From Halorientalis salina (GTDB lineage: Archaea; Halobacteriota; Halobacteria; Halobacteriales; Haloarculaceae): a DNA stretch of 64,000 bases. Where the stretch lies: NCBI RefSeq assembly GCF_005049285.1, contig NZ_SOSC01000001.1:682001-746000 (forward strand). The letters are read 5' to 3'. The notes below the pieces were generated by a model. It made no database searches. It was not told the DNA's origin and worked only from the letters and a program-made list of their open reading frames with translations. Position numbers and translations under genes: made by a program. How positions within the stretch are numbered: the first letter of the stretch is position 1; the number at the start of each line of letters is the position of its first letter. This document shows positions 25,353-47,995 of this stretch, one piece after another.

Positions 25353-26453
25353 CTACGACGAGTTCAACGCGAGTTCGGGCGTCGTCCAGACGACGAAGTC
25401 GTCCTCGTCCTCGCGGTTGATGATGCCGTTGATGTACTCGGCGTCCTCGTCGGGGGAGTCGTTGACCTCCTCGTCGGCGACCGGCGTGACCTGTCGGACC
25501 TCGTCGACGACCCAACCGAGGTGGCCCTGGTCGCCGACCGCCTCGGAGTCGAAGACGATGATGAGTTCGCCGCTGGTCTCCTGATCGACTTCGAGCGCGT
25601 CCTTCGGGTTGATGATCGTCGTCACCTGTCCGCGAAGGTCGACGACGCCCTGGACGTACGACGGGGAGTTGGGGACGCGAGTCACGTTCTCCAGTTCGAC
25701 GATCTCCTCGATGTAGTCGATGTCCAGACAGAACCGCTCGTCGCCGAGTTCGAACTCCAGCACGCGCGTTCGCGACCCGGCGTGAGAGGAGCCCCGAGAC
25801 GCCGCCGCACGGGCGGCTGCGACGCTCTGTTCGGCGCTGTCGAGCGTCGTCTCGGCGTCTTCGGCCACCGTCGTCGCCTGATCGGGGATGGCGAACGTGC
25901 TCCCCGAGTTCAGGTTCCCGATCGCCGAGGACGCGTCGGTCGAACTCACCGTCTCGGCGACGCCCGACTGTGGCTCCGCCGACGCCACGTCGTCCTCACC
26001 GGCCGCGTCGACGGCCTTCTTTTCCGCTTTCTCGTCGTGGGCGGTCGTCTTCTCGCTCGAATCGTCGAACTCGAAGCCGCTCTCCTCGACGGCCTCGTCC
26101 TCGTCCCCGTTCCCCGCTCCGGTCGACGGCGACTCGACACCAGTCTCCCGGTCGTCGGCTGCCGGGGGTTCCGGCGTGTTCGACCCGCTGTCAGTGTCGG
26201 AGTCGGCAGGGCCGTCGCCGTCCGAAGTCGTCGGTTCGTCGGCCTCACTGTCCGAATCGGTCGTCGACGGGCCCTCGTCCTCGGCGGAATCGGTCGCGGA
26301 CGACTCCCCGTCGGCCGTGGACTCGTCGTCGGCCTCGGAAGTGTCGTTGTCGTCGGAGTCGCCGCGGCCCTGACGCCGGCCTTCCCGCATCTCTCGCAGT
26401 CGGTCGGCCCTGTTCATCCGGTCGTTGTCGTCGTCTGTGTCCTCCTCTGTCAT
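25353..26453 (-). CDS. cheW: CheW-type chemotaxis coupling protein with long acidic N-terminal region
   Basis: The last roughly 135 of 366 residues are a CheW domain: RVLEFELGDERFCLDIDYI, VVDLRGQVTTIINPK and VVDEVRQV. CheW couples transducers to CheA. The first 200 residues are a disordered Asp/Glu/Ser/Thr-rich tail with a coiled stretch, unlike the usual 140-residue CheW. The start overlaps the ParA stop (ATGA), so the two proteins are made together. The long tail may be a binding arm for ParA; this is inference. Confidence 0.9.
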   Translation of the reverse strand: MTEEDTDDDNDRMNRADRLREMREGRRQGRGDSDDNDTSEADDESTADGESSATDSAEDEGPSTTDSDSEADEPTTSDGDGPADSDTDSGSNTPEPPAADDRETGVESPSTGAGNGDEDEAVEESGFEFDDSSEKTTAHDEKAEKKAVDAAGEDDVASAEPQSGVAETVSSTDASSAIGNLNSGSTFAIPDQATTVAEDAETTLDSAEQSVAAARAAASRGSSHAGSRTRVLEFELGDERFCLDIDYIEEIVELENVTRVPNSPSYVQGVVDLRGQVTTIINPKDALEVDQETSGELIIVFDSEAVGDQGHLGWVVDEVRQVTPVADEEVNDSPDEDAEYINGIINREDEDDFVVWTTPELALNSS

Positions 26454-27355
26454 GCTGTCACCTCCTCGACGAAGCCGAACTGCTCGTCGAGATCTGCCGC
26501 AATCGCCAGGAACACGTCCGCCATGTCGACGCTCCCGTCGTAGGCGAACACGGACGTCCCCTGGGAGAACGCCCGTTGCAGCGCGACCCGTTTCCGGACC
26601 TGCCAGACCGGCACGTCCGAGAACACCGCCTCGAACCACTCCAGCATCTCCTCGTCCTCGTTGGTCGATTCGACCCGGTTGGCGACGACGCCCACCTCGT
26701 TGACGGTGATCCCCGTCCGGTCTTCGAGGGCCGCCACCTGGTCGAACAGCAACTCGATGGCTCGCTCGGAGGTCGCTTCGGTCAGTGCCGGGATGAGCAC
26801 GTTCCGCGTCGAGTAGATGGCGGTGTCGGTCAACTGGCCGTAGAAGGGCGGCGAGTCGACGATGACGTAGTCGTAGTCGTCGGCCACCACATCCAGCGCC
26901 TGGTCGAGCAGTTTCATCGGCTCCGAGTCCGGGATGGTCTCCGGCGTGACGACGTTCGTCAGCGCCGACAGCGCCGACGGGTCCACGTCGATGTCGGGGT
27001 CGGCCTCGATGGTCGCCATCGCGTTGGCCATCGTCAGTTCGTGTTCGGCTTCGAGCAACTCGAAGTGGCTCGGGAGCACGTCCATCTCCTCGTGGGACAC
27101 GATGAGGTCCCGGATCACGTCGCGCTGGCCGGCGTCGGTCAGCAGGTCGAACACGGTCGGCGGGTCCGTGTCGTAGGCGTCGACCAGCCCGAGGCCCTCG
27201 GTCGCGTTCCCCTGCGGGTCCAGGTCCACGAACAACACGTCGCGACCGCGCTCGTTCAGTGCACCCGCGATGTTGATGGCGATCGTCGTCTTCCCCGTCC
27301 CACCCTTCGCGTTCGTCACGCAGATCGACGCAGGACGGTCTTGCTCCCGGCTCAT
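26450..27355 (-). CDS. ParA/MinD-type ATPase linked to cheW
   Basis: This 301-residue deviant Walker ATPase has NAKGGTGKTTIAINIA (signature Lys at 17, Walker A to 24), the switch I region DLDPQGNATEG (about 43-54) and switch II YVIVDSPPFYG. It lacks a ParA DNA-binding extension and a MinD amphipathic tail that I can recognise. Its partner is cheW, not parB. In bacteria, ParC-type ATPases position chemosensory arrays; the same job is likely here. A TATA-like TTTTTATAAG lies 31-40 bases before the ATG. Confidence 0.88.
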   Translation of the reverse strand: MSREQDRPASICVTNAKGGTGKTTIAINIAGALNERGRDVLFVDLDPQGNATEGLGLVDAYDTDPPTVFDLLTDAGQRDVIRDLIVSHEEMDVLPSHFELLEAEHELTMANAMATIEADPDIDVDPSALSALTNVVTPETIPDSEPMKLLDQALDVVADDYDYVIVDSPPFYGQLTDTAIYSTRNVLIPALTEATSERAIELLFDQVAALEDRTGITVNEVGVVANRVESTNEDEEMLEWFEAVFSDVPVWQVRKRVALQRAFSQGTSVFAYDGSVDMADVFLAIAADLDEQFGFVEEVTA

Positions 27356-27385
27356 CGATAGCTACCGGTGCTCGGTCCCGCCAGC

Positions 27386-27394
27386 TTATAAAAA
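27386..27394 (-). promoter_or_regulatory. TATA-like promoter of the parA-cheW operon
   Basis: On the minus strand the string TTTTTATAAG, followed by GCTGG, lies about 31-39 bases before the parA ATG at 27355. It is the most TATA-like element in this AT-rich gap. Confidence 0.55.
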
Positions 27395-27436
27395 TAGGTT
27401 CCCGATTCTCAATTGTTGTAGCAGCGGCGAGCGGGG

Positions 27437-46939: not shown

Positions 46940-47842
46940 TCAGACCGTGTCTTCGCGGAGTTCCTCGACGATGCGCTTGAGTTCCTCGACGCGCTCGACC
47001 TGTTCGTCGTTGGTATCGGAGATGTTGTCGATCTCCGTCGCGACGCGTTCGGCGCTCTCGGCCACCTCGTCGATCATGCTCGCGACCTCCTCGGTGGAGG
47101 CGGCCTGTTCGTCGGTCGCGTCGGCGACCTCCTGGGCACCCTGGGCGGCCTCCTGGACCGCGTCGTCGATGAGTTTGAGCGTGTTGACGGCGCCTTCGAC
47201 CTGTTCGATCCCGGTGTCGACCTGGTCGTTGGCCTCGTCGATGCTCTCGACGGTGTTTTCGGTGTCGGCCTTGATCTCAGCGACCATCTGCTCGATCTCG
47301 GCGGCGTTCTCCCGGGACTCCTCGGCGAGGGCCTTGACCTCGTCGGCGACGACGGCGAAGCCTTCGCCGGCTTCTCCGGCACGGGCGGCCTCGATCGAGG
47401 CGTTCAGCGCCAGCAGATTGGTCTGATCGGCGATCTCGTTGATGACCTCGACGATCTCGTCGATCTCGTCGATCCGGCCCCGGAGCTGGTCGACGTCGTC
47501 CGCGACTTCCGTGGTGGCGTCGTCGACGCTCTCCATCGCCCGGATGGCGTCGTCGGCGGACTCGCGCCCCTCGTCGGCGAGTTCCCGGGCCTGGTCGCTG
47601 ACGGCCTTGACCTCGCTCGCGCTCGACGCGACCTCCTCGACGGTGGCCGAGAGGTTCGAGACCTCGCTGGACACGTCTCGCATGCGGTCCGACTGGTCTT
47701 TTGCCAGCGAACTGATCTCGTCGGAACTGTTCGAGACGGATTCGGTCGCCGACAGCAACTCGTCGATGGCCGCGCCGAGTTCCTCGGCGGTGTACTCGCC
47801 CGCAGACGCGGCGAGTCCGGTATCGCCCGTTCCTGAAGCCAT
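46940..47842 (-). CDS. Soluble methyl-accepting chemotaxis transducer (HTR type)
   Basis: This 300-residue protein consists almost entirely of the MCP signalling coiled coil. The hairpin tip EIADQTNLLALNASIEAARAGEAGEGFAVVADEVKALAEES is intact and Gln/Glu-rich methylation-like segments lie on both sides. There is no transmembrane helix, HAMP or recognised sensor domain; the first 45 residues are a short polar leader. It could read a cytoplasmic cue or couple to a separate sensor. The start at 47842 (MASGTG) excludes an arginine-rich, unlikely extension. Confidence 0.92.
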   Translation of the reverse strand: MASGTGDTGLAASAGEYTAEELGAAIDELLSATESVSNSSDEISSLAKDQSDRMRDVSSEVSNLSATVEEVASSASEVKAVSDQARELADEGRESADDAIRAMESVDDATTEVADDVDQLRGRIDEIDEIVEVINEIADQTNLLALNASIEAARAGEAGEGFAVVADEVKALAEESRENAAEIEQMVAEIKADTENTVESIDEANDQVDTGIEQVEGAVNTLKLIDDAVQEAAQGAQEVADATDEQAASTEEVASMIDEVAESAERVATEIDNISDTNDEQVERVEELKRIVEELREDTV

Positions 47843-47995
47843 TGTTATCCCCACAGGCGACTGCTCGTGAATTAAGGCTACCCCCGCAATTCTCAAAAGC
47901 GATTTTCGACGGGCGGAGACCGGGTCGTCGATCGATCTCTCCGAGCGCGAAAACGGAATCACACCACGCTACGACGGACCCCTTCGAGCCGACGA

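Follow-up and report, generated by a model that had tools for sequence, protein, structure and literature searches.

The parA gene and the second cheW gene of Halorientalis salina probably encode a cargo-positioning unit in which CheW would act as the cargo adaptor of the ATPase: a short N-terminal tip would dock on ParA and activate it, an acidic linker would tether, and the CheW domain would hold chemosensory arrays. We base this reading on sequence comparison and on analogy with known systems. Both genes lie on the minus strand of the 64,000-nt stretch of DNA that was analyzed (hereafter the window), with the following features:

26450..27355, minus strand: parA, Soj-type ParA ATPase, 301 aa (PF13614, E = 1.1e-35)
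25353..26453, minus strand: cheW (the second CheW), tip plus acidic linker plus CheW domain, 366 aa (PF01584, E = 7.5e-23)
26450..26453, minus strand: ATGA overlap of the parA stop and the cheW start (sequence)
26379..26423, minus strand: N-terminal tip, residues 11-25, DRMNRADRLREMREG, proposed ParA-docking/activating peptide (tip conservation)
25764..26378, minus strand: acidic low-complexity linker, residues 26-230, proposed tether (composition)
25353..25763, minus strand: CheW domain including the stop codon (PF01584 at residues 231-351)
27385-27396 and 27400-27412, minus strand: promoter-like TATTTTTATAAG and conserved upstream element TTGAGAATCGGGA, respectively, 5′ of parA (inspection)

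As the original prediction had it, a ParA-type ATPase is coupled to CheW by a four-base overlap, the ATGA being shared by both ORFs, and ParB is absent: PF02195 (ParB_N) had no match in the whole window genome, and 10 of 14 control genomes were matched. Given the lack of a ParB_N match genome-wide, a canonical ParABS system was rejected. By inspection, the two elements just ahead of the parA start are similar in five Halorientalis loci, and the related sequences GATAAT(C)GGGA and TTTTTAT precede parA in Haloarcula sebkhae (L137) and others, not in L107.

By sequence profile and predicted fold, the window ATPase is of the Soj/ParA kind. Its nearest PDB entries by profile were Soj/ParA proteins, and a structural model (mean pLDDT 91.0) matched Soj/ParA structures with Z scores of 33.6 (Soj), 33.3 (M. 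xanthus ParA) and 32.7. The best MinD match reached Z = 26.0; with both profile and fold nearer to Soj/ParA (Z about 33 versus about 26), MinD identity is less likely. Inspection for a MinD-type C-terminal membrane-targeting amphipathic helix revealed that the protein ends shortly past its last predicted helix (residues 277-292). The deviant Walker A motif with its signature lysine was fully conserved, K17 and K22 being present in 32 of 32 aligned relatives.

The parA-cheW pair is real and conserved. Places matching the window ParA at E ≤ 1e-110 numbered 34 among 194 genomes of the class; they came from 32 of the 41 genomes that represent the Haloarculaceae, to which the window belongs, and from two genomes of another family. 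In the genome survey of parA-cheW pairs that had been proposed as a check, cheW lay immediately 3′ of parA in all 32 orthologues examined (the count leaves out two of the 34 places, G154:C8 and G188:C1), and 29 of these 32 pairs had the four-base overlap. A separate scan of named genomes yielded 80 loci picked by ParA alone, of which 74 had the four-base overlap. Their partners were CheW-domain proteins (50 loci) or small proteins (26 loci), the remaining four being affected by a contig end or a broken frame. Some of the Haloarculaceae set are MAGs with names only to order level. The CheW-domain loci include five of the Natrialbaceae type (Natrarchaeobius, Natrialba, Halopiger and a MAG), the ParA of which lacks an insertion of ∼35 residues present in the Haloarculaceae type. 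Twelve Natrialbaceae-type loci (L063-L074) count for anatomy and not for frequency, because they were chosen for the proximity of their parA and cheW matches; L063/L177 and L067/L182 are duplicates. Loci of this type (L064-L074, L174, L180 and L182) mostly carry a second, short CheW gene a few kb from the ParA-linked long one. In Haloarcula rara (L145; 8866-9691 and 9550), the tip and the CheW domain are encoded in separate frames, owing to a frameshift or a sequencing error.

The original prediction had assigned the first 200 residues of CheW to an acidic tail and proposed this tail as the docking arm. The long acidic, disordered-looking arm is indeed there: the window linker (205 residues from tip to CheW domain) holds 55 D/E, 12 K/R and 15 large hydrophobic residues. 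Residues 11-25, however, are Arg-rich and nearly invariant, in contrast to the remaining tail. Across 44 Haloarculaceae-type proteins (L112, L113, L119, L145, L147 and L149 were omitted as cut, broken or of another type), the 15 residues near the N-terminus follow the consensus [DE]-R-M-[DE]-R-A-x-R-I-R-x-M-R-E-G (in short, xRMxRAxRIRxMREG), with six columns invariant in 44 of 44: Arg at positions −3, 0, 3 and 8, Ala at 1 and Gly at 10. Over 300 random pairs of these proteins, the tip averaged 80% identity, the CheW domain 67% and the linker 42%, as against 36% for shuffled linkers. The linker was net acidic in all 44 proteins and varied in length from 75 to 265 residues. Lack of conservation of the tail, which had been named as speaking against the prediction, was thus found for the acidic linker and not for the basic tip. 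The acidic tail was therefore rejected as the docking element, a role that it most likely does not have, its sequence being hardly conserved; with an identity near the shuffled level and a variable length, it would rather be a tether of little sequence content. What the comparison shows to be conserved is the Arg-rich tip, the probable docking element. Its M, A, I and M residues recur at three-residue steps and would make one helix face. In a small partner, the tip (residues 4-22) was predicted as a helix by AlphaFold2 with moderate confidence (block means 69-71).

Two further features of the arm were observed. A second short, [LI]PD-like linker motif precedes the CheW domain at about 25850-25910 (AIPDQATTVAED in the window; ELPDQELIEEAM and PLPDTDTLEAAL in others); a loose pattern found it in 34 of the 44 proteins, and it may bind something else. 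The arms of L056 and L113 seemingly carry two or three tip-like repeats (e.g. RADRIRRRR, RAERLR and RADRISRARSGRR), from which the number of tips per arm may vary.

Using a strict core derived from the tips of the CheW proteins (R[AS].R[ILVM][RK] within the first 60 residues), we detected the tip in 76 of the 80 ParA-linked partners; L134, L157, L164 and L166 lacked it, and a loose core, the same pattern minus its last position, was present in all 80. By class, the strict core occurred in 45/46 Haloarculaceae CheW-type, 6/6 Natrialbaceae, 2/2 third-type and 23/26 small partners. Shuffling of the N-termini gave an expectation of about 0.1 tip cores in 80 partners, and only 3 of 805 other putative genes (ORFs) of the same loci had one. 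These 80 loci represent far fewer independent events, because related genes inherit their N-termini. The tip is thus common to two separate CheW-coupled ParA clades and to the small partners of related, often plasmid-borne ParAs; judged from these distributions, it goes with the ParA and not with the CheW body. Of six plasmid pairs at greater distance, one had the strict core and three had the loose core, and of the plasmid-type loci L077-L082 the tip was not found in L079 and L080. The tip therefore fades with ParA divergence, as one member of a co-evolving pair would.

Genome-wide searches gave the same association. The only tip match in the window genome was the window cheW (E = 1.1e-9); the next-best place had E = 0.26. 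A tip profile run on 20 relatives returned nine strong places (E ≤ 1.9e-5; next match E = 0.16), six of which directly follow parA, with the other three in genomes outside the ParA search. In G110, a genome of the same genus as the window's, neither the tip nor this ParA was found. The window genome also encodes four other ParA-family genes (L083, L085, L088 and L089) with overlapping small partners that bear acidic stretches; inspection of these partners found no tip, and other ParA clades may have other tip types.

An Arg-rich peptide could also be a direct binder of DNA, or of another partner, with ParA merely a neighbor kept for co-expression. There is a precedent in the FrzCD receptor of Myxococcus, which is reported to bind the nucleoid via a positively charged N-terminal tail (PMC5716589). 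We consider this explanation improbable here: the net charge of the tip is just +2 in the median (range 0 to 4), which is weak for DNA binding in haloarchaeal salt, and the tip recurs on the small partners that accompany related ParAs, was not found elsewhere in the genome, away from this ParA, and was missing from the partners of the four other ParA-family genes.

Docking of the tip on ParA, by comparison, would have a plausible receiving site. In M. xanthus, a ParB arginine is reported to meet ParA residues Y81, E82, D110 and E117 (PMC12462528), which align with F69, D70, E99 and E106 of the window ParA. Across the 32 aligned ParAs, F69 is conserved in 27, D70 in 32, D/E99 in 32 and E106 in 28; the four without E106 are the Natrialbaceae ones, which counts against the docking reading there. 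Since D70 and D/E99 are kept and E106 is missing in the Natrialbaceae, the Haloarculaceae type plausibly has an arginine-receiving site, for which the case is weaker in the Natrialbaceae type. The basic residues R254 and R256 are invariant (32/32), but the column of the DNA-binding R238 of M. xanthus, as given in the same source, holds alanine in the window, so that ParA, as an ATP dimer, would be only a putative nucleoid binder. At the other end of the unit, the residues described for the receptor groove of T. maritima CheW (L14, V27, I30 and V33; PMC5706961) align with L232, I245, I248 and I251 of the window CheW, all four of them hydrophobic, and the groove-matching residues are conserved.

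CheW domains were found at three places in the genome: the window cheW, a short CheW, and a long frame that we take to be CheA, the latter two on contig C17. The genome also has 22 MCPsignal and seven archaellin places above the cut-offs, and four of the archaellin places are no more than about 13 kb away from the short CheW; motility and chemotaxis are therefore probable. The soluble transducer noted ∼20 kb away also proved to be present, as an MCP signal domain at 47057-47602 (minus strand) within an open frame at 46940-47968 that shows no clear membrane-spanning segment (19-residue Kyte-Doolittle means of 0.96 at most). As one of 22 MCP places, its spacing tells little by itself, and we found no support for a tie between this transducer and the parA-cheW pair.

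The other genomes with the pair, like the window genome, also have a short CheW and CheA, a setting in which ParA docking could be real and yet have a different output: ParA would sequester or release the second CheW, which would compete with CheW1 and so tune which receptors reach CheA. H. salinarum CheW2, a possible orthologue of the window CheW, is described as binding receptors, favoring three cytosolic ones, and as not fishing CheA, and its competition with CheW1 is a proposal of the authors of that work (PMC3579733). We nonetheless regard such an output as unlikely, because the clearest relatives of the window ParA adjoin plasmid-type partners, which points to segregation.

These relatives are frequent on plasmids. 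In PLSDB, 27 plasmid records (E ≤ 1e-30) carry related ParAs (<60% identity), and 32 carry the small-partner body; on the six plasmids inspected closely, including PHS4 of Halobacterium salinarum, parA overlaps a 'hypothetical protein' gene by four bases. A C-terminal body centered on EKNRHFYPLVV..GL is common to the small partners (L154-L181 and plasmid loci L200-L203) and probably represents an unnamed plasmid-partition family. No family, DNA-binding ones included, scored above the cut-offs in nine of these proteins searched against Pfam or in five searched against NCBIfam, and a Foldseek search with one model gave no match at E ≤ 0.001, an absence that is not proof of a new fold. To the eye, the sequences look ribbon-helix-helix-like, an impression that we did not count as evidence.

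On a quick, unrooted ParA tree, built after near-copies had been dropped, the CheW and small-partner states require two changes, and forcing the CheW-linked ParAs into one clade was rejected (AU test, p = 0.004; L078-L080 dropped beforehand). In a CheW tree of 132 columns, the long CheW domains of the Natrialbaceae group together (100/100), separate from those of the Haloarculaceae; with a branch length of 3.9, a long-branch warning and so few columns, this tree serves only as agreement. Together, the AU test, the two changes and the CheW-tree split make two separate gains of CheW the simplest reading, and CheW seems to have replaced the small cargo domain of plasmid-type partition pairs at least twice. 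A plasmid-first order is presumed, the ParA tree being unrooted.

These results also bear on the most ordinary explanation, a gene neighborhood without special meaning and an unimportant N-terminus kept by shared ancestry alone. All of the loci are related, and the whole ParA clade has overlapping partners, which speaks for it. A passively inherited tip would nevertheless hardly exceed the folded CheW domain in conservation next to a linker that has diverged nearly to the shuffled level, and the CheW-coupled ParAs fall into two clades that do not group as one; we therefore consider this explanation very improbable.

L119 (Halococcus thailandensis) has a CheW-type ParA, 67% identical to that of the window, yet a small-partner body. 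Its tip scored 60.8 against the CheW tips and 31.2 against the small-partner tips, and that of L152 scored 51.9 and 27.5; by these scores, the tip of either locus follows the type of ParA and not that of the cargo. There was no such agreement with ParA type for L162 (36.9 versus 38.0) or L149 (29.5 versus 40.1). L119, L152 and L162 fall near the base of the Haloarculaceae-type ParA clade with supports ≤92, L152 and L162 being long branches. It is tempting, if still tentative, to go further and propose a ParA family that reads the 15-residue Arg-rich tip on any body. Such a tag would originally have belonged to plasmid partition and would have been transferred to CheW on at least two independent occasions, in the Haloarculaceae and the Natrialbaceae, and L119-like loci, with a CheW-type ParA and tip on a plasmid-type body, would keep the stage before the change. 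If so, chemosensory arrays would be partitioned like plasmids.

For the window pair, we propose the following mechanism. The Soj-type ParA would sit on the nucleoid as an ATP dimer, and the second CheW would fill the role that ParB has in plasmid partition. Its Arg-rich, helical tip would dock on the ParA dimer and speed ATP hydrolysis, the long acidic linker would be a flexible tether, and the CheW domain would bind chemoreceptor tips, so that the receptor array becomes the cargo. As the tip repeatedly docks and lets go, arrays would be spread or positioned across the nucleoid and divided among the daughter cells. The unit itself would descend from a plasmid-type partition pair whose small cargo domain was swapped for CheW. 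By analogy, array placement is most likely the job of the ATPase, as the original prediction had supposed. The presence of the same tip on partners of related plasmid ParAs suggests that salt-loving archaea may position some of their sensory apparatus in much the same way as plasmids.

The principle behind such a unit is already known, since the bacterial ParC/ParP and PpfA/TlpT systems apply a basic N-terminus to chemosensory arrays. More generally, partners of ParA/MinD ATPases are described as using a short, positively charged N-terminus as an activator on otherwise unrelated bodies (PMC7993993, PMC10241942). In Vibrio, ParC is a ParA-like ATPase with a partner, ParP, whose N-terminus meets the ATPase, a contact that for the window pair would follow from the tip, and which enters the arrays through a C-terminal SH3-like domain resembling CheW and CheA-P5 (PMC5706961). 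The window pair fits this arrangement in gene order and domain architecture. The ParP domain is nearer to CheA-P5 than to CheW, whereas that of the window protein is a Pfam CheW domain; furthermore, ParC sits at a polar anchor (PMC5706961), and the closest ParAs that we found to the window ParA are haloarchaeal, many of them on plasmids. The window pair would work like ParC/ParP and have an apparently separate, haloarchaeal origin. In Rhodobacter sphaeroides, the ParA-like PpfA spreads cytoplasmic receptor clusters over the nucleoid, and its partner TlpT likewise has a positively charged N-terminus (PMC5706961, PMC7993993). TlpT is described as a receptor, unlike the window partner, which is a CheW adaptor, has a long acidic arm and gives a sole Pfam match, to the CheW domain. 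The ParG/ParB-type partners of plasmid ParAs, which the window protein would resemble, have a short, basic N-terminus that acts as activator and is attached to an unrelated body (PMC7993993), and the small ParG-type partner gene also adjoins its parA, but the body in the window is CheW instead.

Among archaea, the prior work that we found on the placement or inheritance of arrays concerns MinD proteins in Haloferax. In Haloferax volcanii, MinD2 and MinD4 are needed for chemosensory foci and affect array placement (PMC11588486), so haloarchaea have other placement routes. Both are, like the window ParA, ATPases of the ParA/MinD superfamily in a haloarchaeon; they are MinD proteins, for which the accessible part of that report mentions no adjacent CheW partner gene, whereas the window ATPase is nearer to Soj. 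The parA-cheW pair would be a further route, separate from MinD2/MinD4. Among the matches listed in the open-access literature, we found no paper on a haloarchaeal parA-cheW pair or its tip. As far as this search reaches, three things are new: an archaeal instance in which a Pfam CheW would serve as the cargo adaptor, the haloarchaeal tip of 15 residues, and the occurrence of this tip on partners of both the plasmid type and the chemosensory type. If our reading is true, the pair would be an archaeal ParA system whose cargo adaptor is identified and bears a 15-residue tag, and the one tip on bodies of both types would cleanly record the turn of a DNA-segregation ATPase toward protein cargo.
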